From: a virus
IMG/VR virus record: IMGVR_UViG_3300036985_002638
Location: 1-64,000 of that record
Strand: one strand, 5' to 3'
DNA: 64,000 nt
Of this stretch, positions 2,748 through 48,360 are shown in pieces; the stretch's first letter is position 1, and the number at the start of each line of letters is the position of its first letter. Both the position numbers and the translations under genes were made by a program. The notes beneath the pieces were generated by a model that made no database searches, was not told where the DNA came from, and saw only the letters and a program-made list of their open reading frames with translations.

Positions 2748-2778
2748 ATTTATTTTTGATACATAAAAATTTAATAAA

Positions 2779-3117
2779 ATGAATGAAAACGCAAGTGCTG
2801 TAGTAAGGGCAATTAAACAGAAAAAAGAGTTAATAGCTGTAGGATACGAGAAGTTAACTGTAACAGGTGGAGCCGCTCAATCTTTAACCGTTCCAACATC
2901 TGCTGTTTATGCAGAGATTAGAGTTGAATCTGCGACTACTACTGGAATAATTATGAGGTATTTAATGCTAGGAGCTACAACTCCTCCAACAACTACAGAT
3001 GGTATGGCATTATCTTATTTAGATTTCTTTGATATTACAAATGGAGATAACGTGAGAAACTTTAGAGTTATTGCAGTTTCTTCGACTCATACTTTACATA
3101 TACAATACTATAAATAA
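2779..3117 (+). CDS. Small virion-associated protein, unassigned (112 aa)
   Basis: The 112-residue product is beta-rich after a short helical N-terminus. It has the pattern SAVYAEIRVESATTTG, reminiscent of small phage adaptor or fibre-base proteins. It starts a run of fibre-like genes (2779-7743) that are spaced by only a few bases. No specific family was recognised. Confidence 0.65.
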   Translation: MNENASAVVRAIKQKKELIAVGYEKLTVTGGAAQSLTVPTSAVYAEIRVESATTTGIIMRYLMLGATTPPTTTDGMALSYLDFFDITNGDNVRNFRVIAVSSTHTLHIQYYK

Positions 3118-3123
3118 TAAAAC

Positions 3124-3366
3124 ATGATTTCAGCTATTAAAAATATAAAAAGAGTATTTTCTCAAAATGGAGGTAGTGGCGGAGGTAGTAACCTAGAAAT
3201 AAAAGATAATGGTTCTACCTTAACAGCAGCAGCGACATCAATAGACTTTACTGGAGCTGGTGTAACTTCATCCGTAGTGGGCACAGCAGTTACTCTTAGT
3301 ATAACAGGAGGCGGTGGTGGAACATCATCAACAAGTAATTTATTTGCTTACTATAACTTTATATAA
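3124..3366 (+). CDS. Short fibre-like protein with conserved N-terminal anchor
   Basis: This 80-residue protein starts with a basic segment (KNIKRVFSQ) that closely resembles the start of the 496-residue fibre protein at 6050 (KNPRKIFSQ). Glycine-rich linkers flank a module of the IKDNGSTLTAAATSIDFTG type, which is common in phage fibre and appendage proteins. The shared start suggests a common virion attachment point, with this gene carrying a much reduced appendage. It may be a truncated fibre. Confidence 0.6.
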   Translation: MISAIKNIKRVFSQNGGSGGGSNLEIKDNGSTLTAAATSIDFTGAGVTSSVVGTAVTLSITGGGGGTSSTSNLFAYYNFI

Positions 3367-3378
3367 AAACAAAACAAT

Positions 3379-3636
3379 ATGATGACTTACACAGCCCCAG
3401 ATGGGCACATAATCGAATCTTTACCATATCCAAAGGTGGTAGTTTATGATTGCAAATGTTCAGAAATAGTAGATGGTATTTACTATTCTATTGAAACGAC
3501 TGGAGCACCGACTGAAATAGGAATACAACAAATTAATATTAAAAGAGCAGTTGATAATAATAATATGAGTATTGAAATAATAATGAGTTCAGATGAAGAA
3601 TTAATTGAATATCAAAATAATAATAAACTAATATAA
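3379..3636 (+). CDS. Hypothetical protein in the fibre gene cluster (85 aa)
   Basis: I do not recognise this protein. Two ATG codons in a row (3379 and 3382) offer the start. The product is acidic toward the C-terminus and has three cysteines. The gene lies one base before the next start at 3638, so it is co-transcribed with its virion neighbours. Confidence 0.55.
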   Translation: MMTYTAPDGHIIESLPYPKVVVYDCKCSEIVDGIYYSIETTGAPTEIGIQQINIKRAVDNNNMSIEIIMSSDEELIEYQNNNKLI

Positions 3637-3637
3637 C

Positions 3638-4057
3638 ATGGCAGCAAATACAACACCAATTTTCGTAAAACAGGGTAATTTTACGCCCGCAAGAATAGCA
3701 GCAGCAAACACAGCATCTGATGGTTCTGGAACATTAGTAACATTAGTAACAGCAGTTACAGATGGAACAAGAGTAGATGGAGTTAGATTTATTAACTCGC
3801 AAGCTACGGCAGCAGTATCTGGTGCTAAAGTATTAAGAATATTTTTAACTGATACAGGTGGAGCAAATCCACGATTAATTGGTGAGGTAGCTATGGCAGC
3901 AGCTACTCGTTCAAATACAGTTATTGGAGCAACTTCAATTTATACTTTTGACCAAGCAATAGTAATGAAATCAGGACAGTTAATGTCAGTTTGTATGAGT
4001 GTTTATGTTGGCGTTCAAGACCAAACAGATGCTATTGCTTACGCAGGAGATTATTAA
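3638..4057 (+). CDS. Small beta-rich virion protein (139 aa)
   Basis: The 139-residue product is rich in A, T and V and is predicted to be all-beta (for example RVDGVRFINSQATAAVSGAKVLRIFLTD in parts). Proteins of this kind are found next to phage tail fibres as caps or adaptors; that assignment is by composition and position. It ends two bases before the next gene. Confidence 0.6.
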   Translation: MAANTTPIFVKQGNFTPARIAAANTASDGSGTLVTLVTAVTDGTRVDGVRFINSQATAAVSGAKVLRIFLTDTGGANPRLIGEVAMAAATRSNTVIGATSIYTFDQAIVMKSGQLMSVCMSVYVGVQDQTDAIAYAGDY

Positions 4058-4059
4058 TT

Positions 4060-6021
4060 ATGGCAGCTAGAACAGTTAGTAATACAGGTGGTAATTGGGA
4101 CGCTGTAGCAACTTGGGTTGGTGGTGTAGTACCTATTGCTGGAGATACTGTAGATTTTACCGCAACAAGTGGAAATCTTACCGTTAATGTTACAACAGCA
4201 ACATTAGTAGGGATAAATTTTACTAACTATTTAGGAATAATTACATTTAATGCTAATATAGCAGTTAACACATCAGTTAATTTAGGAACAGTTGGATATA
4301 CTCAAGCTGGTAGTGGAACTTTTGGATTAACAATTAGCACTACTACAACAATTACATCAAATGGAGTTGTTTGGAATAATTTATTAGCTTTTTTTGGAAG
4401 TAGTCAAACGTACACATTAGCAGATAATTTGACAGTTACTGGAAATATAACTATATCTGGAACTGGTTCAACAACTTTTACAGGTAACACTTTATATATA
4501 AGTGGTAATTTAACAATTACAACTACAACAACAATTGTTGGTGGAACAGAATTTGTTTTTAATGGAACTGGAACTTGGGCTCATTCATCTACTGGAGTTA
4601 TACAAAATAATGTTACCATTAACACTACTGGAACTCTGACAATAGGCGCTAATATCTATTACAATACAGGTATCCTAACTTACACAGCAGGAACAGTTGA
4701 TACAACAACTAATAATAGCACTTTAAATATAGGGGCATCTACTACTTTAGATACAGATAGAGGAGTAACTAAAATAACTTGGAATAATATAAGGACAAAT
4801 AGTACAATTACATTAACATTATCAAGTAATTTAAACACTACTAATTTGTATCTAAACAATGTTTTAAGTTTTGTATTGGGTGGAAATAACTTATCAATAT
4901 CAGATACTTTAATTATAGGATACGCAACTGGTTCAACTACATTTAATACACCTCAAAATTTACAAGTAACTAATTTATTATTAGGTAATGGTTTTGCTAG
5001 TAATCACATATTAAATGGTTTATTTACAATATCAGTATCGGGTAATTTAACTCAAAATCAAGGCGCTGGCACTTCATCAGGTACAACTTCAATTTTATTA
5101 AATGGAACAGGAACTTGGAGTAATACTAGCACAGGAGCTTTACAAAGCAATTTAACAATAAATACTATTGGAGATATAACTATAAGTGGAAATGTTTATT
5201 ACTCTACAGGCACATTTATTCACACATTAGGAAATGTAGTTACTACAAATAGTACTCTAAATATAGGTTCTACAGCTACGATAAATGCAAGTGAAATATT
5301 TTGGAATAATATTATATTTGGTACTGGAACACAAACTTTAATAAGTAACTTAAATTGTAAAAATTTAACATCTGGAGGAGCGTCAACTAATACTATAAAT
5401 GGTTTATTTAATATAAATGTAAGTGGGAATTTAACCGCAAATGGAATTGTACTAGGCACATCTACTATTATATTAATTGGTACAGGGCTTTGGACTTCTC
5501 TTAATTCTTCTAACACTTTTAGAACACCTGTAATTATTAACGCAAATGGAATTATAACATTAGCAAACACTTTAGAGTGCGGAGGTAATTTAACATATAT
5601 TAAAGGAACTGTAAAAGCGAATAATACAACTATTAGTTTTACCACATCCACATTAATAAATTTACATAAATTAATTTTTAAAAATGTTTTACTAGGTGCT
5701 AGTTCAACTATTACAATGAATGAATTTTTTAGTGGTAGCCCATCACTTGTAACTAACGTAAATTCAACAAGTGGCTCAAATTACACAATAGCTTTTCAAG
5801 ATGGTTTTGAAAAAATATCTAAATTTGTAAATATTAGCAGTTGCACATTGTCAAAACCTTTACAATTATTGGTTCTTACAAAGAGTAAAATAAATTCAAG
5901 AAATAGTGGAATAAGATATATTAATCAATCTCCTAATGGAATAGCAAAGAATAAACCAAGTATTATAAACCAAACAACTTACAATAGCCAGATGTTAATT
6001 AGTGACCCTGGAATGAAATAA
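4060..6021 (+). CDS. Beta-helix-like tail fibre or receptor-binding protein (653 aa)
   Basis: The start is set at ATG 4060, directly after the previous stop; an upstream in-frame ATG at 3991 would overlap the previous gene by 67 bases and add an unnatural Cys/Arg-rich stretch. The protein is extremely rich in T, N, G, I and S. Three imperfect long repeats begin near residues 165, 346 and 469. Each has the pattern GTGxW, then INxxG, then a long strand ladder, which is typical of a parallel beta-helix. The opening (TGGNWDAVATWVGG) resembles the lead-in of G8-type beta-helix proteins. A surface-binding appendage is the best reading. Confidence 0.7.
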   Translation: MAARTVSNTGGNWDAVATWVGGVVPIAGDTVDFTATSGNLTVNVTTATLVGINFTNYLGIITFNANIAVNTSVNLGTVGYTQAGSGTFGLTISTTTTITSNGVVWNNLLAFFGSSQTYTLADNLTVTGNITISGTGSTTFTGNTLYISGNLTITTTTTIVGGTEFVFNGTGTWAHSSTGVIQNNVTINTTGTLTIGANIYYNTGILTYTAGTVDTTTNNSTLNIGASTTLDTDRGVTKITWNNIRTNSTITLTLSSNLNTTNLYLNNVLSFVLGGNNLSISDTLIIGYATGSTTFNTPQNLQVTNLLLGNGFASNHILNGLFTISVSGNLTQNQGAGTSSGTTSILLNGTGTWSNTSTGALQSNLTINTIGDITISGNVYYSTGTFIHTLGNVVTTNSTLNIGSTATINASEIFWNNIIFGTGTQTLISNLNCKNLTSGGASTNTINGLFNINVSGNLTANGIVLGTSTIILIGTGLWTSLNSSNTFRTPVIINANGIITLANTLECGGNLTYIKGTVKANNTTISFTTSTLINLHKLIFKNVLLGASSTITMNEFFSGSPSLVTNVNSTSGSNYTIAFQDGFEKISKFVNISSCTLSKPLQLLVLTKSKINSRNSGIRYINQSPNGIAKNKPSIINQTTYNSQMLISDPGMK

Positions 6022-6049: not shown

Positions 6050-7540
6050 ATGGGACAGTCAGCAGTAAAGAATCCTAGAAAAATATTCAGTCAAGCTGGG
6101 GCAGACCCTGCATTAAATAATCGTGTAACAAATTTAGAAAATAATGAATACAAAATTACATATTATGAGATTGTGTCAGGAACAAGCGGAAGCCTCACAA
6201 TCCCAGCAAACTCAACCATTAACTCAGATGAGTTTGGTTTATCGGGTAATGCAATACTTTCAAAGATTGATGGCTCAAATAAACCAACGTATGAAAGCCC
6301 TCAGACAGTAGGTGGAGTTGTAGTAACAGCATCTCTTAATACTACTACAGGAGCATGGACATCATCAGGAACTTATACAGATACTAGTGTAGCTTTAATC
6401 TATTCAATTAAGATTAAAGCAGTATATTATTCTACTTTAAATTATGATAGAATAATTGAAACTGTAGATTTAGCTGTAACAAAAACTTCTGATTTAATAA
6501 ATGATGGTGATGATGGAGTATCTCACTTTATATCTTTAAATGATTTACCTTCTAATCTTATATTGTACCCTACAACGGCGTCAAGTGATGTTAGCGGATA
6601 CTTTAAATTAGTAAATAGCATAACAGACCCTAGCTATAATTCAGTTGCTGTAAATGTAAGTACAGGAGCAATAACAACAACGGCTCAATTAATATCTTCA
6701 TTAGCTACAAGTGCAAATATATTAGTTGGCAATCCAGGTGTATTCAATATTTCAACAATAGGTAATATACGAAAAACAAGTGGTAGTGGTACTGCTGATT
6801 TTTATTTTGAAGCTTATAAAAGAGATTCTATTGGAACAGAAACACTTATAACCACATCAATTAATACTACACCTGTAACAAATGCCCTTTATTCTGAATT
6901 TTCAACAACTGGTTTATGGAATAATGGTGATTTTGTATCAACAGATAGAATAGTTTTAAAGTTCTATGCTAATAGAATAACTGGTGGTTCAGACCCTACT
7001 TATGACTTTCAATTTGGAGGAACTGCTCCAGTTAGAACTCTAGTACCTATACCTTTAAATGTGGCTCCTAGTAATTCAATTCAAATTGTATCTAAAGACA
7101 TTACTGATAGCACAGCCTTAACAGGTACAACTGCTATAACTTTAATGAAGTCGGTATTAATACCTGCTAATACTTATGTAACTGGGGATGTAGTTAAAAT
7201 ATTAAATAGAGCTATTAGAAATACAGCAACTGGTACTGCTAGTAATTTATTTTACATTAATACATCTAATACTTTAACAGGTGCAACGCTTGTTGGTACT
7301 CAATCAGCTGCTTCAAGGTATTATGCAAATGAGCGTAATTTATACATTAAGTCAACAACAATTAGTGAAACTATTGATGTTACTACTTCAATTAGTAGTG
7401 ACGCAAATGTATCTTCAGCAAATGCAAATAGCAATTTAAATATTAATTGGGGTGTTAATCAATATATTATTGCAGCTTTCCAAAATGCAGCGGTGGGTAA
7501 TAGTACGGTAATGAGTTCACTAATTATACAAAAATTCTAA
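6050..7540 (+). CDS. Tail fibre-like protein (496 aa)
   Basis: The N-terminus (KNPRKIFSQAG) matches the anchor of the short protein at 3124. A short helical segment (residues 24-32, RVTNLENNE) that could trimerise follows, then long beta-rich repeats ending in a C-terminal domain. The layout of anchor, neck and beta body is that of a phage fibre. It shares one base with the next gene (ATG at 7540). Confidence 0.65.
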   Translation: MGQSAVKNPRKIFSQAGADPALNNRVTNLENNEYKITYYEIVSGTSGSLTIPANSTINSDEFGLSGNAILSKIDGSNKPTYESPQTVGGVVVTASLNTTTGAWTSSGTYTDTSVALIYSIKIKAVYYSTLNYDRIIETVDLAVTKTSDLINDGDDGVSHFISLNDLPSNLILYPTTASSDVSGYFKLVNSITDPSYNSVAVNVSTGAITTTAQLISSLATSANILVGNPGVFNISTIGNIRKTSGSGTADFYFEAYKRDSIGTETLITTSINTTPVTNALYSEFSTTGLWNNGDFVSTDRIVLKFYANRITGGSDPTYDFQFGGTAPVRTLVPIPLNVAPSNSIQIVSKDITDSTALTGTTAITLMKSVLIPANTYVTGDVVKILNRAIRNTATGTASNLFYINTSNTLTGATLVGTQSAASRYYANERNLYIKSTTISETIDVTTSISSDANVSSANANSNLNINWGVNQYIIAAFQNAAVGNSTVMSSLIIQKF

Positions 7541-7759: not shown

Positions 7760-8158
7760 ATGAATGCCTCAGAATTAATATTTGGAATAAAAGACGTAGT
7801 AGCAATTATCATAGGATTAGGTTCTATAGTTAGTTTTGTTTATGTTATAAAATCAAGTTCAGAAAAAGCTAACATTAAAATATCTGAAGTTAATGATGAA
7901 TTAGATGAATTTAAAAAAGTTGTAAATGAGAAGTTTTTACATTCTAAAAATACAAAAAAAGCAACAGTAGAATATATCATGGATACAGTAGAAAAAAAAG
8001 AGAATTTAATTTACAGTAAAATAACTGAAATAAAAAGTGAACAAGAAGTGGCTCACAATAAGTTATGGAACAAGTTAGACACTGTAGAAAAGATGCAGCA
8101 AAACATTAGTAATAATTTAGCTGAACTAACAGGTTATTTAAAAGCTAAAAATATTTAG
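7760..8158 (+). CDS. Membrane-anchored coiled-coil protein, holin-like
   Basis: One membrane segment (about residues 10-29, VVAIIIGLGSIVSFVYVI) is followed by about 90 residues of strongly charged heptad-like helix. This N-terminal membrane anchor plus coiled coil is seen in XhlA-type and other phage lysis-accessory proteins. Its position just upstream of the murein enzyme at 8280 supports a lysis role. The family itself is not certain. Confidence 0.55.
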   Translation: MNASELIFGIKDVVAIIIGLGSIVSFVYVIKSSSEKANIKISEVNDELDEFKKVVNEKFLHSKNTKKATVEYIMDTVEKKENLIYSKITEIKSEQEVAHNKLWNKLDTVEKMQQNISNNLAELTGYLKAKNI

Positions 8159-8199
8159 TTCAGAATATAAAAACTAATAACTGAAAGGATTAGAAAGAA

Positions 8200-8229
8200 A
8201 AGCATCCGCAATTTTGCGTAGTGATGCTT
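8200..8229 (+). promoter_or_regulatory. Stable hairpin before the lysis enzyme gene
   Basis: AAGCATC (8200-8206) pairs with GATGCTT (8223-8229), and inside it CGCAA pairs with TTGCG, leaving a bulge of TAGT. There is no T-run after it, so it is not a normal terminator. It may be an RNA processing or stability element in the 120-base space between 8158 and 8280. Confidence 0.5.
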
Positions 8230-8279
8230 GTAAGATATTAATGCCAAATAAAAAAGTTTAATATTAAAAAATTAGTAGT

Positions 8280-8894
8280 ATGAGTAGAACTTATAATCAA
8301 ATAGAACAAGCTGTTAGGTCACTTGGATATAAATGGTTTACGGCACCACATTCTTTAAATTATGTTTGGGAAAGAACTTCATTTGAAGCCACAAATAAAT
8401 TTACTGATTATTTACATATTTGTTATCAAGGAAATCATGGGGACAAAGTGATATTAACAATTCCAGCAACAACAAAACCAGGATTAAAAGGTTCGTTATT
8501 AGAACCTACAACTGTTGAAGGTATTAAAGGAACAGCAGTTATAGAAAGTCCTCAACAAGTATTAGGTGGATGGGAATTTAAGGATACTACAAAAGAATTT
8601 AGTTCATATCCATATTTCAGACAAGTTGGTAAGGTTAATTATTGGAGAGATGGAAATAAAGACACTTTTATTGATAAAGTTCAAAGGCAAATAGCAAAGA
8701 TATTTGGCACACATTGGCACAGAATGAGTCAAAATAATACTTATGGAAGTGGATTAGTTAATAATTGGAGTTTAGGCTGCTTCGGAAGCCCAGAGCCTGA
8801 ATTTGAAAAGATATTACCTATTACAAGAATATCGTGTGGTATTTATGGGAATAAGGTTACTGGAACAATCATAGAATCTAAACATATAATTTAA
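8280..8894 (+). CDS. Putative murein-degrading enzyme, YkuD-like (endolysin candidate)
   Basis: The 204-residue protein ends with the pattern GTHWHRMSQN, 12 residues, then NNWSLGC. This resembles the His and Ser/Thr-x-Gly-Cys active-site motif of YkuD-type L,D-transpeptidase/carboxypeptidase folds and of small phage peptidoglycan enzymes with an H-R...N-W-S-x-G-C signature. The catalytic residues would be H142 or H144 and C168. There is no signal peptide, so release would need a holin, and holin-like genes lie on both sides. The enzyme class is inferred from the motif only. Confidence 0.6.
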   Translation: MSRTYNQIEQAVRSLGYKWFTAPHSLNYVWERTSFEATNKFTDYLHICYQGNHGDKVILTIPATTKPGLKGSLLEPTTVEGIKGTAVIESPQQVLGGWEFKDTTKEFSSYPYFRQVGKVNYWRDGNKDTFIDKVQRQIAKIFGTHWHRMSQNNTYGSGLVNNWSLGCFGSPEPEFEKILPITRISCGIYGNKVTGTIIESKHII

Positions 8895-8905
8895 AAAATT
8901 AAGAT

Positions 8906-9121
8906 ATGAAAAAGTATAAAGTATATTTCTCGGTATTTAATTTATTCGGAAATACTCAATCAGAGATTGTAAAATTACAGCAATACGCAAAAGGTATAGT
9001 AAGTGCCATTGCAGGAATGACATGGTATGAATCTAATGCTACTTATGCTATTTATGTAGGTATAGGAGGTGTTGTATTAGATACGTTATTAGCTTGTTTA
9101 TATTTAGAAGAAAAGAACTAA
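8906..9121 (+). CDS. Small membrane protein, holin candidate (71 aa)
   Basis: Hydrophobic segments at about residues 28-42 and 46-66 follow a polar N-terminus, and the C-terminus is charged (LEEKN). Size, topology and position between the murein enzyme and a spanin-like gene fit a holin. Its stop TAA overlaps the ATG of the next gene by one base. Confidence 0.55.
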   Translation: MKKYKVYFSVFNLFGNTQSEIVKLQQYAKGIVSAIAGMTWYESNATYAIYVGIGGVVLDTLLACLYLEEKN

Positions 9122-9756
9122 TGGAAATTTCAGTAGTTAAATATTGGTTAGGGGTAATAGGCAGGGGCATAGTAATATTACTTGCTTGTTTATTTGTATT
9201 TAGATATTGTGGCGGATGCGAGAATAAAATTGAAGTAGCTAAAAATGATAATAGTCAGTATTTTGCTAAGATGAAGTCAGATAGTATGATAATTGTTAGC
9301 TTAATGAAAAAACAATACCAAGACAGTTTAAATACAATAGCTTCAAAACGCTCAGAAGACTCGATTAAGGTAATTGCAGACAATAATGAGATGTTGTATA
9401 GAAGTTCATCTAAAAGAGTTAGAGAATTACTTGCTAGAGGTATTTGTGATACTGTATTGATAAAGATTGCTATGAATGATTGCGATAGTACTATTAAATC
9501 AAAAGATGCTTTACTTGCTCAGAAAGATTCTACTAATAAAAGTGTTAATGAAGAGTTAAGTACAGTAAAAGAAGAGTTAGTTATAAGTAAAGGAATGGTT
9601 GTGACGGCGCAAACAATAATTAAAAATCAAGCGGAGGACTATAAAACTCTTGAAAAGGAGTCTAAAAAAGCTTTAAGAAAACAAAAGATTAAAACAATAG
9701 GCGCTATTATAGTTGCATCAATTACAGAAGTTTTAACTATATTTGCTTTGAAATAA
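9121..9756 (+). CDS. Spanin-like coiled-coil membrane protein (211 aa)
   Basis: The start ATG at 9121 overlaps the previous stop; an upstream in-frame ATG at 9094 lies inside the previous gene and is less likely. Residues about 10-27 form a membrane segment, and residues 35-185 are a long charged coiled coil (with Cys residues at 62 and 70 of the chain after the membrane segment). A second hydrophobic stretch at the very C-terminus (IGAIIVASITEVLTIFAL) could cross or attach to another membrane. That fits an i-spanin or unimolecular spanin in a Gram-negative host. A terminator follows. Confidence 0.55.
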   Translation: MEISVVKYWLGVIGRGIVILLACLFVFRYCGGCENKIEVAKNDNSQYFAKMKSDSMIIVSLMKKQYQDSLNTIASKRSEDSIKVIADNNEMLYRSSSKRVRELLARGICDTVLIKIAMNDCDSTIKSKDALLAQKDSTNKSVNEELSTVKEELVISKGMVVTAQTIIKNQAEDYKTLEKESKKALRKQKIKTIGAIIVASITEVLTIFALK

Positions 9757-42872: not shown

Positions 42873-43250
42873 TTAACTTCTAAAAAATGATGATGTTTGC
42901 TCCACTTTTTCTTGTATTTTATTCTTATCAACAAACCAAACCGATAAAGCTTTCCCTTTCCAATTAAGAACAGGTGAACCATTAGCTCCTTTCCATTCCA
43001 TAGTAGAATAGTATTCAAAAAACTTATTCGCGGATTCTAAGGTATATCCTTTTGATTTAAAGTATTCTCTTACGTCTTCTACTCTTGGAGCAGGAGCAGG
43101 TTTCTTCTTTTCTTTCTTAGGTTTACTAAAATACTCTTTAATAGCTTCGTGGGTAGTCTTAGAATACTTTTGTTGTTTCTTAGTTCTATCCGCCAAAGTG
43201 AAATTGTAAATAAATATTTCTCCTTCTTGTGTTACTTCTAGTTTTGTCAT
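42873..43250 (-). CDS. Replication-associated protein, possible helicase loader (125 aa)
   Basis: A Lys/Pro-rich linker (residues 50-60) separates a beta-like start from a C-terminal helical unit with EYFKSKGYTLESANKFFEYY and NWKGKALSVWF. This Y-[FY]-...-W-K-x-x-A-x-x-W pattern occurs at the ends of phage replication initiator and DnaT/helicase-loader-like proteins. The gene ends two bases before the DnaB-like start, which supports that role. Confidence 0.6.
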   Translation of the reverse strand: MTKLEVTQEGEIFIYNFTLADRTKKQQKYSKTTHEAIKEYFSKPKKEKKKPAPAPRVEDVREYFKSKGYTLESANKFFEYYSTMEWKGANGSPVLNWKGKALSVWFVDKNKIQEKVEQTSSFFRS

Positions 43251-43254
43251 TTTT

Positions 43255-43272
43255 TAATTCAAGTTTGAGTTA
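43255..43272. repeat. Dispersed 18-bp palindrome, copy 5
   Basis: TAATTCAAGTTTGAGTTA overlaps the stop codon of the gene ending at 43270 and lies five bases upstream of the next start region. Confidence 0.8.
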
Positions 43273-43551
43273 TAAATTAAATACTTTATCTAAATTGATT
43301 TGTTGATACCATTGCAAATAACTTACATCAACTTTTTTAGGCTCGTTAATCAATAACTGACTAGCTTTACTTTTACTTAAATGCTTTCTGTTAATTATCC
43401 AAGCATTAGCCGATTCATTAAAGTTAACGAGTGTAGGAACATTTGTGATATTAAATAACAACTTTTTTCTAAATGCTAGTATCTGATTTTCAAATATTAG
43501 GTAGTTAGAGTAGGTTATAAAATAATCGTTGTTTGGTTTTGCTTCGTTCAT
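43270..43551 (-). CDS. Hypothetical protein (93 aa)
   Basis: A 93-residue, tyrosine- and asparagine-rich protein with a possible helical hairpin (FENQILAFRKKLLF and HLSKSKASQLLI). It precedes the replication genes. Not recognised. Confidence 0.5.
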   Translation of the reverse strand: MNEAKPNNDYFITYSNYLIFENQILAFRKKLLFNITNVPTLVNFNESANAWIINRKHLSKSKASQLLINEPKKVDVSYLQWYQQINLDKVFNL

Positions 43552-43568
43552 TATCAGTTAGTTAAGGT

Positions 43569-43632
43569 GGTTGATTGCGTGTAGCGAGTAGTTAGCAGTA
43601 ATAAAACTCCCACGCTCCTGTGCGTATCAACC
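43569..43632. ncRNA. Folded intergenic element at the end of the cassette array
   Basis: GGTTGAT (43569-43575) pairs with ATCAACC (43626-43632), with further pairing inside (TGCG and CGCA-type segments). It contains GTTAGCAGTA followed by A and TAAAAC, which also occurs on the opposite strand beside the hairpin at 43938. It marks the left boundary of the three-gene array. Confidence 0.5.
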
Positions 43633-43887
43633 AGCGTTAAAAGAGCCTAATATTACGCCTCTTACTTGTTCCTCATTTGCTATCCCTATTTCTTTACAAA
43701 ATATAGATGTTTCTTTTAAAGCCCAATCACTCCATTTGCTATTAGGTTCTTTGTAAACCCTACCGTCAGGATGTATTGTTTTAGCATCAGTTTCATTTTC
43801 AGCGCAAACGATACATGAGTCATAAGTATCATAATCGTTGTTGTCATTTTGGGTTAATAAGTATATTTTCATTTTAATTATTTTCAT
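43627..43887 (-). CDS. Conserved phage/cassette protein (86 aa)
   Basis: The sequence KIYLLTQNDNNDYDTYDSCI, then VCAENETDAKTIHPDG, then GVILGSFNAG belongs to a small protein family I know from phages and from gene cassettes, with unknown function. Start could also be ATG at 43872 (five codons in), which fits the family start better. It is the third gene of an array separated by attC-like hairpins. Confidence 0.7.
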   Translation of the reverse strand: MKIIKMKIYLLTQNDNNDYDTYDSCIVCAENETDAKTIHPDGRVYKEPNSKWSDWALKETSIFCKEIGIANEEQVRGVILGSFNAG

Positions 43888-43937
43888 TTTAAGTTTTATG
43901 TTTTACATTTCAAATTGCTATTCTGTTTTACTACTGC

Positions 43938-44007
43938 TAACAGCACCTAATAAACAGGCGGACATCAACTATATTTATACCGCCCGTCCATTAGCTGCAA
44001 AACGTTA
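43938..44007 (-). repeat. attC-like hairpin A
   Basis: A 20-base box (TAACAGCACCTAATAAACAG on the plus strand, 43938-43957) and a 17-base box (TTAGCTGCAAAACGTTA, 43991-44007) flank a variable hairpin with GGCGG/CCGCC. The boxes pair imperfectly with each other, leaving bulges. Both boxes are identical in the element at 44895. Confidence 0.65.
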
Positions 44008-44059
44008 GTTTCAATAAAATAAACCATTGATGTTTACTTTTCTGATGTTAATATAAGCG

Positions 44060-44365
44060 CTACTTACCGTACTTTTCCTTTAATCTTTCTAATTGCTCCA
44101 ATTCCCTTCTTTTAATTTCTTCATTTCTTTTGTTGGTTTCAGCTATTCTAAAACTAAACTCTTCGTCTGTTTCTAATCTTTGATTAAAAGCAGTAATTGA
44201 AACATACGCATTTCCATAATCATCATAAGCTTCTATGTCAATATAATTAGCTCCTAATTTTTCAAGTTCATTAATATCTTCTTTTAATTTGCTTATTTCA
44301 ATTCCATAAGTCCAGTTAACTGAGTAATTAACTTCAAATTTTCTTAATTGTTTTTCCTTATTCAT
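44060..44365 (-). CDS. Hypothetical cassette protein (101 aa)
   Basis: The 101-residue protein has an N-terminal beta segment (KFEVNYSVNWTYGIEIS), a middle with D-D-Y-G-N, and a charged helical end (RRELEQLERLKEKYGK). It is flanked on both sides by attC-like hairpins, like a gene cassette. Not recognised. Confidence 0.6.
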   Translation of the reverse strand: MNKEKQLRKFEVNYSVNWTYGIEISKLKEDINELEKLGANYIDIEAYDDYGNAYVSITAFNQRLETDEEFSFRIAETNKRNEEIKRRELEQLERLKEKYGK

Positions 44366-44401
44366 ATTTTTTTATTTTAATTTGGTTTATTTTACTGTAA
44401 A

Positions 44402-44484
44402 CTAACACAACCTAACAAACATTTGAGCGTTACTGCTAATATGTATCAGTTGGTCTACAAACGTCTGTTAGCCCCGTCCGTTAG
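44402..44484 (-). repeat. attC-like hairpin B
   Basis: Left box TAACACAACCTAACAAACAT matches the box of elements A and C in 17 of 20 positions. Right box TTAGCCCCGTCCGTTAG keeps TTAGC and CGTTAG. The inner part is longer (about 45 bases) and different. Confidence 0.55.
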
Positions 44485-44503
44485 TACCAATAGCCTTTGA
44501 TGT

Positions 44504-44851
44504 TTACGCTTCGGTTGTTGATATAGGTGGATTTGGTAATCGCATCCAATGTGTTACTGTTCCAAGTAAATTATGATTTGTATCAGATTTAAACTTATTA
44601 TCTTGTAAAAACCAAACTCCCTGATAAACACATTGGTTGAATTTTGGAGCATCGGCATTAAATAATAATACAAATTCAACTCTTTCCGTTGGTAATTTAT
44701 CTTTTACATTAAACCATTTATTTTTTTGGTTTGAGTATTCAACTATTAAAGCATCAATACACTTTAATACAGTTTCTTTTGGATGAACTAATGGAAAGTT
44801 GTAATAAGCAACTTCTACTATTTTTTCAGCGTATTGTTTTGAATCTATCAT
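44504..44851 (-). CDS. DUF551-domain protein (115 aa)
   Basis: The pattern WFNVKDKLPTERVEFVLLFN, followed by YQGVWFLQD and ending in THWMRLPNPP, is the DUF551 signature, widespread in phages and genomic islands with unknown function. It is the first gene of the three-gene array, preceded by hairpin C and a promoter. Confidence 0.75.
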   Translation of the reverse strand: MIDSKQYAEKIVEVAYYNFPLVHPKETVLKCIDALIVEYSNQKNKWFNVKDKLPTERVEFVLLFNADAPKFNQCVYQGVWFLQDNKFKSDTNHNLLGTVTHWMRLPNPPISTTEA

Positions 44852-44894
44852 AATTGTATGTATTTGTTTTTAAATTTAATTTGGCTACTGGTAC

Positions 44895-44943
44895 TAACAG
44901 CACCTAATAAACAGCAAGCCGATTTATTAGCTGCAAAACGTTA
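44895..44943 (-). repeat. attC-like hairpin C
   Basis: TAACAGCACCTAATAAACAG (44895-44914) and TTAGCTGCAAAACGTTA (44927-44943) are identical to element A; the inner part is only 12 bases. It lies between the promoter at 44952 and the DUF551 gene. Confidence 0.65.
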
Positions 44944-44951
44944 ATATATAC

Positions 44952-44979
44952 TTAAACGTATATAAAAATAAAAGGTTAC
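44952..44979 (-). promoter_or_regulatory. GTAACC/CGTTTAA-type promoter for the cassette array
   Basis: GTAACC at 44974-44979 and CGTTTAA at 44952-44958 on the minus strand, 15 bp apart. The cassette array follows directly, as after an integron promoter. Confidence 0.6.
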
Positions 44980-45001
44980 GTTTATTTGTAAATATTTAAA
45001 A

Positions 45002-45247
45002 TTATAAATGAGTGTCAAGCAATTTAAGCATTTCTAGCCAATTCTCTTTAGTTTTAAAATAGATTTCCATCGTGGACGCACCAGCTTTTTCTCTTAGTAA
45101 GTAAATATCTAATCCATAGAGTGAAGTATCGTCTTTGTAGGCGTAATAGCCCGCGAAATCAATCTGATTAAAAGAAAACATAACATATCCATCTACATAT
45201 ACTTTTACTCTTCCGTTGTAAATTTTAAGTTCGCGTTTATGTTTCAT
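45002..45247 (-). CDS. Hypothetical protein (81 aa)
   Basis: An 81-residue beta-rich protein (LKIYNGRVKVYVDGYVMFSF) ending with a short helix. It is the last gene of the operon that begins with the intein-containing helicase. Not recognised. Confidence 0.55.
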   Translation of the reverse strand: MKHKRELKIYNGRVKVYVDGYVMFSFNQIDFAGYYAYKDDTSLYGLDIYLLREKAGASTMEIYFKTKENWLEMLKLLDTHL

Positions 45248-45598: not shown

Positions 45599-45751
45599 TT
45601 ATTTGTTTTTATAGTTATTTGCTAAGCATTTAAAGCATTGTAAGACTCCTTTTATAATATTCATGTCAGAAGTAAATACTGGGTGTAAGCTATACTCTGT
45701 AGGCTTTTTACAGATATAACATACTTTTGTTTCTTTTACTTCTTTTTCCAT
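45599..45751 (-). CDS. Small zinc-ribbon-like protein (50 aa)
   Basis: An ATG-to-TAA frame of 50 codons contains CYICKK at residues 11-16 and CFKCLAN near the end. Two CxxC pairs in a 50-residue protein suggest one bound zinc. It overlaps the helicase stop by 16 bases, so it is coupled to it. Function unknown. Confidence 0.6.
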   Translation of the reverse strand: MEKEVKETKVCYICKKPTEYSLHPVFTSDMNIIKGVLQCFKCLANNYKNK

Positions 45752-48360
45752 TTGTTCTTCATTTCTAATTCGTAGTATATAGTACTGTATTGCCCCTTAG
45801 ATGCGAAGGTAGTGTCATATCCTTTAGATTTCAAATATTCTAACTCTTTTTTATTACAAGGTTCTAATGATATAATATCCGCGCATTGTTGTTTAGTGTA
45901 AGTATTATTTTGAATGTCGTGTCCTAAATCAGATATATATTTCAACTGCGCGGATGTAGCTGCTTCTTGCATCTTTTTCCATCCAAATTGTTTAGCAGGA
46001 GGTAAATCAATTAATATAATCTTTTCGTCTTTCTTATGTAAGTTTTCTACATGAGCAACTCTTCTTTGTCTTTCTTCTAATATTTGTTGTTTTTTAGCAT
46101 CAGTAGTAAATACTCTATCTTCTAAATTAAGAACTCTATCTAACTCCCAACAATTTATAAGCTTGTGTCTTGATGTCGAATCAACGAAGTCCAGGATAGT
46201 ACAAACTTGACCGTATTTATCAACGTATTCTTTTGATTTTAATCTAGTACCTCTTCCTACCGATTGAACAAATTTAACTAATGATTTTGTAGGAGATACA
46301 TTACCAATACACCCTACTTCTGGATGATTAAATCCTGTAGTAAGCACCATTACATTAGTTAATACTTGTATCTTACCCTTCTTAAAATCAGATATTGTTT
46401 GTTTTCTTTCAGGAGTTACTTTTTCGTCTCCAACAACAGGTTTACAACTAATTCCGTATTCGTTAAATATTTCAGATAAATCAACCGCGTGTTGTATATC
46501 AACACAAAAGAATATCCCTTGTTTTCCTGTAGCGTGTTTGATATAACTTTCAACTACTAATCTATTTCTTTTAGGTATATTTACTTCTGTAGCTAAATCC
46601 TTTGTATTAAGCTCTCCAGCAGTTGTTTTTACATTGTCTAATGAAACGTCTGTCTTAATTCTAATACCGTCTAATTGGCATAGGTAATTGTTTTTAATAC
46701 CATCTGCAATATTGTATTCAAATGTTATTTTATCAAATAAATTACCTAGAGATAAGCCGTCCATACGATACGGAGAAGCTGTCAATCCAACCATTAACTT
46801 AGGTTTGAAGTAATTTAAAGGCATGATATAAGTTCGACTCATATATTTATGGCACTCGTCCACAATAATTAGATCGAAATAATCTTCAAGTATCTTATCG
46901 AGTCTCCTGTAGAGTGTTTGTGCGCTGGCTACGATGACTTCTGCGTCTATTTTGAACGTATCTGCTTTAATAACGCCCATTCTAAACTGATTATTCTTAT
47001 TCTCGAAATGACACTTAGCTCCGTTAACCCAATTAATGAATCCTATTCCTTCAACGTGTCCAGCCATTTCTTCATCGAATTTATTTTCAATGAATGCAAG
47101 TGCTGATTGTTCGATTAGTTCTTCTGTATCAGCGATAAATAGAACCCTTTTAGCTTTTAAGCGTTCAGATAGTTCTACTGCAACTTTAGTTTTGCCCGTA
47201 TTGTGATGTACCGTAAAGTCACCTGTTAAGTATAAATGATTTCCATCTAATTCAAACCCATAAAAATCATCTTCTGTTAATGGCTCTACAGAAAATCCAG
47301 TAACTAAAACATCTTTTATTTGTCTTCTAGGACTCGCTTGTTTCCTTTTTATTTTACAAGGAATTTTATCAGTATGTCCGCTTATGTATATTCTATAATA
47401 TAATCCTTCAAAATTAATTGATTTTATTTTTGCTATTTTTTCTTTTTTATAAGCGCAAAACCCTAAAGACCTAGCTAAAAATAAAATATCGTCAGCTAAA
47501 GAATTGTATTTAGAAGATATTTCATATCCGCATCCATCGTGATTTAAGCTTCCATCAGAATCAATTAATCCCGCTAATAATTGCAATCTAGCATCCTCGT
47601 TTCCTGTTAATAATAGGCTTGGTATTATTTTCTCCCCAGTAATACACATACTTTTGCATATTTCAGATATGCTATTCTTATCTTTTCTAGCCTGATGTCC
47701 ATTTGGCATTGTAAATGAAAAGAACATACACCTATCTTCAGGAACAGTTTTTTTAATAGTTATTTCTGGATGGTTTATTGAACAAAACTCTTTAAATTCC
47801 CCAAAGAACCAATTTTCAACTTCAATATCAGGAATAGTTATTTGAGGAGTATTGAATGTTCCGTCTCCTAACCATAATCCTATAAAATAAGGATGAGTAG
47901 GACTTCCTTTATCTATACTGCTTATTATTGGCTTTCTGTAAAGTTTATATAAATGTTTTTTTGATTTACTCCAATCTAAATAATCCTTAACTGTTACGTT
48001 TTCTATTTTATTAGGATTATATTTTTCTCTATGAGGTTTTAATGTAGTTCTTTTTAAAGATAAAATATGGTTTTCGTTAACCATAAATGAATCTCCTTTA
48101 ACTGGAGTTATTTTATACATCAACTCGTTACCTCTAGCTAAGTTTAATACGGTTCTTTCAGTAGAATCATCTCCCATTAATTTATCTCCAACAACAATAT
48201 CCTGAACCATTTTAATAGTTCCGTCAAACATTATGATCGGAGTATTTAGAGCATGGCATCCAGTAGCTAATACAAGTAATAGCTTATCATTACCATTCTT
48301 TAAATCATCTTCTATACAAGCTAACGCTTGTTCTTGATAAGGCCTCAAGTTCTTTACCAT
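45736..48360 (-). CDS. SF2 (DEAD/H-type) helicase containing an intein
   Basis: The extein, residues 1-34 plus 388-874, is a superfamily 2 helicase of the UvsW/RAD25-like type. Walker A is ATG-TGKT, split by the intein; motif II is DECH (IIVDECHKYM); motif III is VGLTASP; motif VI is QSVGRGTRLK. It probably remodels branched DNA during replication and recombination. The intein (353 residues) sits exactly within Walker A, between Gly34 and Thr388. Without splicing the ATPase would be dead. The C-terminal 100 residues of the extein are helical and specific. Confidence 0.85.
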   Translation of the reverse strand: MVKNLRPYQEQALACIEDDLKNGNDKLLLVLATGCHALNTPIIMFDGTIKMVQDIVVGDKLMGDDSTERTVLNLARGNELMYKITPVKGDSFMVNENHILSLKRTTLKPHREKYNPNKIENVTVKDYLDWSKSKKHLYKLYRKPIISSIDKGSPTHPYFIGLWLGDGTFNTPQITIPDIEVENWFFGEFKEFCSINHPEITIKKTVPEDRCMFFSFTMPNGHQARKDKNSISEICKSMCITGEKIIPSLLLTGNEDARLQLLAGLIDSDGSLNHDGCGYEISSKYNSLADDILFLARSLGFCAYKKEKIAKIKSINFEGLYYRIYISGHTDKIPCKIKRKQASPRRQIKDVLVTGFSVEPLTEDDFYGFELDGNHLYLTGDFTVHHNTGKTKVAVELSERLKAKRVLFIADTEELIEQSALAFIENKFDEEMAGHVEGIGFINWVNGAKCHFENKNNQFRMGVIKADTFKIDAEVIVASAQTLYRRLDKILEDYFDLIIVDECHKYMSRTYIMPLNYFKPKLMVGLTASPYRMDGLSLGNLFDKITFEYNIADGIKNNYLCQLDGIRIKTDVSLDNVKTTAGELNTKDLATEVNIPKRNRLVVESYIKHATGKQGIFFCVDIQHAVDLSEIFNEYGISCKPVVGDEKVTPERKQTISDFKKGKIQVLTNVMVLTTGFNHPEVGCIGNVSPTKSLVKFVQSVGRGTRLKSKEYVDKYGQVCTILDFVDSTSRHKLINCWELDRVLNLEDRVFTTDAKKQQILEERQRRVAHVENLHKKDEKIILIDLPPAKQFGWKKMQEAATSAQLKYISDLGHDIQNNTYTKQQCADIISLEPCNKKELEYLKSKGYDTTFASKGQYSTIYYELEMKNKWKKK
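47200..48258 (-). mobile_element. Intein with LAGLIDADG homing endonuclease, inserted in Walker A
   Basis: Residues 35-387 of the helicase gene. It starts with Cys35 (CHALNTPIIMFDG) and ends with VHHN, followed by Thr as the +1 nucleophile. Hint-domain blocks are visible: block A at the start, block B in NENHIL, and block F/G at FYGFELDGNHLYLTGDFTVHHN (in two pieces). The inserted endonuclease has two LAGLIDADG helices, YFIGLWLGDGTF and LLAGLIDSDGSL, so it should still be active. It splices itself out of the protein and can home into intein-free copies. Confidence 0.9.

Follow-up and report, generated by a model that had tools for sequence, protein, structure and literature searches.

The closest described systems to the one reported here are the integrons and the integrase-less clusters of their cassettes (CALINs). 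An insertion specific to the integron integrase IntI has been called essential for integron function (PMC8138268; PMC9668308). The former of these sources distinguishes an 'Integron-like' subgroup of the simple tyrosine recombinases and calls the insertion essential there, whereas the members that we find linked to cassette arrays are insertion-less. Few complete integrons are on record for Bacteroidetes, with Salinibacter ruber being named (PMC9024848). CALINs have already been reported from phages, e.g. from Polaribacter phage P12002L, along with a small number of integrons of host type (PMC9892861). Like the phage CALINs, the array described below is an apparently integrase-less cluster of cassettes in a phage genome, and one of the reported clusters is in a Bacteroidota phage; the CALIN of P12002L is set beside our array by its description. 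The published clusters had been detected by means of standard attC models, and IntI1 was the integrase used to test them, whereas our array has relatives with a linked non-IntI recombinase and an attI-like site. The open-access literature on Bacteroidota and phage integrons, preprints excluded, yielded neither a description of this system nor its box sequences.

The window analysed here is a stretch of 64,000 nucleotides from a virus record (IMGVR_UViG_3300036985_002638) of 73,844 bases, which codes for a 1481-aa protein matching phage virion proteins. It is very likely, judging from sequence comparisons, that the window holds three mobile cassettes of an integron-like system used by Bacteroidota phages, in a record without a recombinase of its own, and we infer that these cassettes were placed by recombination.

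Organization of the array

The window contains a real array of cassettes with attC-like elements. On the plus strand the pattern GTTA-body-TAAC-hairpin-...-GTTA repeats three times and ends at 44940, and the bodies hold three short genes on the minus strand (43627-44851 in all), i.e. opposite to the elements. A sequence-only reading of this DNA had recognized the same layout of three small genes between elements of one orientation. Each cassette is delimited from a GTTA to the base preceding the next GTTA, a boundary rule derived from the junctions in the relatives L150 and L154 (see below). Cassette 1 (43591-44003, plus strand) comprises a body, with a gene for an 86-aa protein of unknown function belonging to phrog_5444 (43627-43887, minus strand), and element A (43938-44007, plus strand), which is attC-like by its boxes and folding and consists of TAAC, an inner hairpin and TAGCTGCAAAACGTTA. 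Cassette 2 (44004-44479, plus strand) has a gene for a 101-aa protein, also of unknown function, with a weak match to phrog_25568 (44060-44365, minus strand), and the attC-like element B (44403-44483, plus strand). Cassette 3 (44480-44939, plus strand) has a gene for a 115-aa DUF551 protein (PF04448, E 8e-10; 44504-44851, minus strand) and the attC-like element C (44895-44943, plus strand); its ends are 91-96% conserved among cassettes of other phages.

The boxes of A and C are exact copies of one another, as had been noticed from the sequence: the left box TAACAGCACCTAATAAACAG stands at 43938-43957 and 44895-44914 (chance expectation 0) and the right box TAGCTGCAAAACGTTA at 43992-44007 and 44928-44943, all in the same orientation. 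Element B, for which conservation of most of the boxes had been claimed, retains the layout but its boxes have diverged. A 32-base repeat, 81% identical between its copies (44024-44055 and 44494-44525), lies just inside the starts of cassettes 2 and 3 and mostly extends past the paired arm described below.

The distal border of the array lies at 44940-44979: homology to the relatives L149, L150 (the same locus as L038) and L154 restarts at about 44936, and the conserved gene that follows (45002-45247, minus strand) codes for a protein 99% identical in recombinase-bearing relatives. Viral contigs contain 101 relatives of this 81-aa protein, mostly lacking the neighbour genes present here. At the opposite border, DNA homology to L149, L150 and L154 ends at 43280, where the recombinase comes next in those relatives; a conserved gene (42873-43250, minus strand) is syntenic with them, and a 93-aa ORF of unknown function (43270-43551, minus strand), which has no Pfam or PHROG match and is unrelated to the recombinase, occupies the place of the latter. 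No Phage_integrase domain was found in the entire record of 73,844 bases, and on this point the earlier description, of a cluster without its integrase, fits the record; close relatives keep a recombinase. A promoter had also been placed at the head of the array: a sigma-70-type scan gave 14 sites against 12.2 expected, which is not above chance, with a model that may not fit Bacteroidota. An Rfam search of 43300-45200 gave nothing above chance, and the motif TTTAAACGTATATAAA near the distal border is not enriched in the window. Further along the window, a helicase ORF of the DEAD/ResIII type (45736-48360) contains an intein, recognizable by its Hint and LAGLIDADG homing-endonuclease domains.

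Complementarity between the ends of single cassettes

The boxes had been thought to pair across each element. Within the linear array this is true of GTTA with TAAC and of the inner hairpin only; the long complementarity joins instead the two ends of one cassette: 43591-43607 with 43925-43941 in cassette 1 (17 bases), 44004-44026 with 44383-44406 in cassette 2 (23-24 bases, with a single 1-nt offset) and 44480-44495 with 44883-44898 in cassette 3 (16 bases). In 62 phage cassettes the two ends of a cassette match at 7.02 of 10 tested positions and the two sides of one element at 3.63; permuted pairs match at 3.56 (maximum 4.32), and none of 10,000 permutations reaches 7.02. Seven cassettes of bacterial genomes show an end match of 8.71 out of 10. 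The complementarity extends over 10 bp, followed by a constant mispair at position 11 (5% identity) and then by about 4 bp more.

Folding as DNA agrees with this arrangement: the sites of the window re-joined as circles give z values of -4.5, -5.8 and -4.0 (the first for element C and the last for B), and when left in the linear array they give -0.2, -1.9 and 0.1. A parse for units with complementary ends recovered 454 of them, some overlapping, in 163 viral loci, versus 66 in reversed sequence. The element is a hairpin of 48-127 nt with a variable middle, always in one orientation. A static hairpin would have left and right flanks that pair with each other; the flanks of these elements do not, and hence the elements are best understood as joints between mobile units.

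Distribution of the boxes and exchange of cassettes

The sequence-only reading had named in advance two findings that would speak against a gene-cassette array, namely boxes unique to this genome and relatives without exchange of genes at the boxes. The comparisons bear the cassette reading out on both counts. The boxes occur in at least 119 viral stretches and in 68 of 295 genomes of one bacterial class, in which a control pattern had one match. Such searches detect only sites close to the consensus of the window, so the array sizes obtained are lower bounds. At the level of longer sequence, an exact 60-mer of the end of cassette 3 with element C had no match in viral contigs; among 50,697 GenBank phage records the short element gave only partial, chance-like matches and a long element none. 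A search of GenBank phages for the DUF551 protein also found nothing. The hosts are presumably Bacteroidota, going by the named bacterial records that bear the boxes rather than by a phage-host link.

Using the distal flanking gene (45002-45247) as bait, we recovered relatives with a 99% identical flanking protein and a DnaB that is 65-97% identical. L149, L150 and L154 have array borders in common with the window but different cassettes. In L038, our reading of the sequence places an HNH-like ORF (6921-7472, flipped) beside dnaB, which is absent from the window. Four cassettes, 98.5-100% identical, occur in both L150 and L154 but in changed order, cut exactly at GTTA; this GTTA stands right after 'ATAATA' on the recombinase side and after C inside the array. 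Among all loci, 90 pairs have a cassette in common with both of its neighbours different, a figure that includes several pairs from the same contigs and reduces by hand count to approximately eight groups of distinct contigs; several of our other counts likewise include overlapping loci from one contig.

Gene polarity and cargo

Of 90 viral cassettes, 81 have their gene directed against the element, towards the recombinase gene, whereas in cassettes of bacterial genomes gene and element have the same direction in 15 out of 19. The four exceptions among the latter are on L122, L124 and L125, which on our reading of their gene content are phage-like. In 26 viral cassettes an ORF starts inside the element, with a leader whose last residues are often L-G-A-V (TTAGGTGCTGTTA).

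Chromosomal arrays of Bacteroidota (L337, L338, L340 and L341) have the same boxes and the canonical gene direction. L338 and L341 bear at the array base a related recombinase of 384-390 aa, transcribed in the direction of the cassettes. These arrays differ from those of the phages in that gene and site have the same direction, like the cassettes of classical integrons, and in that the recombinase is N-terminally extended. The elements are also present on plasmids of Emticicia and Chryseobacterium. On the Chryseobacterium plasmid NZ_CP041688.1 (L353) a reverse transcriptase of a group II intron (2768-4084) is found near a long element; attC sites are insertion targets of some group II introns. 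On the Emticicia oligotrophica plasmid pEMTOL01 (L352) the anti-phage genes kwaA and kwaB (8055-9559) are separated from a long element by about 2 kb.

Most of 92 phage cassette proteins belong to no Pfam family. The recognized cargo includes DNA methylases and PAPS reductase-like, DUF551, DUF4326, ProQ-like and YopX-like proteins, and looks like the ordinary accessory genes of phages.

The linked recombinase and its attI-like site

At the array base of the close relatives represented by L038 (L150) stands a tyrosine recombinase of 277 aa, P0001, and compact recombinases of this kind are present in eight box-bearing virus records. A Phage_integrase domain is missing from 39 of 49 such records, which says little about its true absence because many records are fragments. 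A scan with the family alignment yielded 324 relatives; around the best 80 of them, with 306 kb and 425 kb covered on the two sides of the recombinase, the elements distribute by side and strand as 84 : 1 : 1 : 0, the 84 being on the 5' side in array orientation. Of 69 recombinase genes, 47 have an attI-like motif, TACATATAnnnGTTA, on their 5' side when no more than one mismatch is allowed; at the same tolerance none of the 69 has it on the opposite strand, and none on the 3' side. In L149, L150 and L154 the cassettes begin at the GTTA of this motif. The window lacks both the motif and a recombinase, so that its own array is only putatively mobile.

These data bear upon a simpler account, in which the elements are mere repeated hairpins, such as terminators or regulatory stems, and the swapping is homologous recombination at short common boxes. 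Mosaicism is indeed general in phage genomes, and boxes of about 16-20 bases are common to different loci. However, the junctions of identical cassettes share GTTA only, wherever the neighbour is the attI-like site or a box of another type; the ends of the cassettes covary; and one recombinase with a conserved attI-like motif is found on one side only. Hence, we regard this account as very unlikely and retain the interpretation of the array as mobile cassettes.

Although related to IntI, the recombinase is without the insertion specific to the latter. It scores best, at 165-206 bits, with NF040815, the XerA/'integron integrase' profile, whose cut-off is 220; the IntI profile TIGR02249 matches only in two pieces, at 132-165 bits against a cut-off of 265. 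In five MAG genomes TIGR02249 had no match above cut-off, and it responds in 14 of 14 control genomes. Residues 180-247 of IntI4 (68 in number) correspond to about 25 profile positions in the linked recombinases. The spacing from KxxR to HxxRH is 53-64 in the 61 phage proteins in which the motif was found and 58-60 in the chromosomal proteins, versus 99-100 in two IntI proteins. The columns R, K, H, R, H and Y of the alignment are conserved, and we take them to be catalytic from what is known of the tyrosine recombinase family. In a maximum-likelihood tree, rooted for drawing only, a split with support of 100/99 separates the Bacteroidota XerC/D from the phage proteins, the chromosomal Bacteroidota proteins and IntI. 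A clade of 52 phage proteins is supported at 98/96, and two further ones, P0002 and P0003, are less firmly placed. The AlphaFold model of the recombinase (pLDDT 89.9, pTM 0.68) aligns with XerA at Z 24.1 (rmsd 14.3, 261 aligned) and with the integron integrase 2a3v at Z 21.8 (rmsd 4.0, 266 aligned).

Relationship to integrons and other mobile systems

The phage system shares several features with integrons: a recombinase gene with an adjoining attI-like site, cassettes of mostly one gene and one folded site, junctions at GTT(A), and re-ordering of single cassettes. Of the components by which a strict integron is recognized, the relatives have an attI-like site next to the recombinase gene, at which cassettes begin; a site built from both ends of a circular cassette is indicated by the covariation of the ends and the folding of the circles, and single-cassette exchange by the comparison of relatives. 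What sets the system apart is a recombinase without the IntI-specific insertion, an outer stem that is about 15 bp long and contains a constant mispair, in place of the 7-bp R box of integrons, genes that face the recombinase gene and may start inside the site, and a home in Bacteroidota phages. As the insertion is missing, and is called essential in the literature, we do not file the array as a strict integron: the phage system appears to work like an integron while lying outside the strict IntI definition. The original picture of an attC array is amended in four respects: the system departs from the canonical IntI/attC integron, the outer stem is made by the two ends of a single cassette, the gene polarity is reversed, and the proposed promoter found no support. 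A CALIN is defined by two or more attC sites without an integrase; the array has three attC-like sites, and its record of 73.8 kb, which may be incomplete, contains no Phage_integrase.

It might be argued that a canonical array was captured from a bacterial integron and is moved by a true IntI. The layout of recombinase, attI and cassettes, the GTTA junctions, the folded sites and the precedent of phage-borne CALINs (PMC9892861) all speak for this, but the low scores with TIGR02249, the missing insertion, the short spacing from KxxR to HxxRH, and the reversed gene polarity of the phage cassettes make it very unlikely. Xer/dif (pdif-like) modules, in which genes between XerC/XerD sites are moved by Xer recombination, are suggested by the recombinase, whose sequence and fold resemble those of XerA. 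The sites of pdif modules are short, double-stranded and two-armed; here the site is a hairpin of 48-127 nt with a variable middle in one constant orientation, and a single dedicated recombinase stands apart from the Bacteroidota XerC/D in the tree, which renders this explanation highly improbable. We give next to no credence to the elements being ends of IS91-like rolling-circle transposons: an element in L123 does adjoin a tyrosine recombinase and IS91-like transposase pair, but the phage arrays have no such transposase between elements, Pfam finds no transposase, and hence no Y2 HUH transposase between characteristic ends, among nine ORFs in and around the array, and the units are a gene and a site with complementary ends. 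The pair in question, with a 283-aa tyrosine recombinase, occupies 364-2376 in L123 and recurs at 470-2477 in L133; we rejected it as the driver of the arrays because these have a different linked recombinase.

A model for cassette exchange

Each mobile unit begins at a GTTA, extends up to the following one, and contains a gene body and one attC-like site. In the circularized cassette the complementary ends of the body would form an outer hairpin arm and the hairpin of the element an inner one. The compact recombinase would most likely bind both arms on folded single-stranded DNA, followed by strand exchange at GTTA with a second attC-like site or with the attI-like TACATATAnnnGTTA just 5' of the recombinase gene; cassettes could thereby be gained, lost and re-ordered singly. 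Directly visible in the sequences are the units, their complementary ends, the junctions precisely at GTTA, the shuffling among relatives and the link of the arrays to a recombinase with an attI-like site. That this recombinase drives the exchange, and on a single-stranded substrate, we infer. The array of the window may be served in trans or be frozen.

Implications

The close relatives, with a recombinase of their own and arrays in which the cassettes differ or are re-ordered, suggest that Bacteroidota phages possess an integron-like apparatus by which genes are traded one at a time. Reported phage integrons are few, mainly host-type ones and integrase-less clusters; here there is probably a separate, self-contained lineage, with a compact recombinase devoid of the IntI domain, an attI of its own, and a pool of cassettes of reversed polarity, many of which are predicted to start translation inside the site. 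If so, the IntI insertion would be dispensable for cassette exchange, and the need for it becomes directly testable with a natural recombinase that lacks it. The GTTA ends along with TACATATAnnnGTTA offer a search signature by which many small uncharacterized phage genes may be found and sorted. Accessory genes would be traded singly by phages: one locus among near relatives shows shuffled cassettes, and the system offers a mechanism for the single-gene mosaicism of phage accessory regions.
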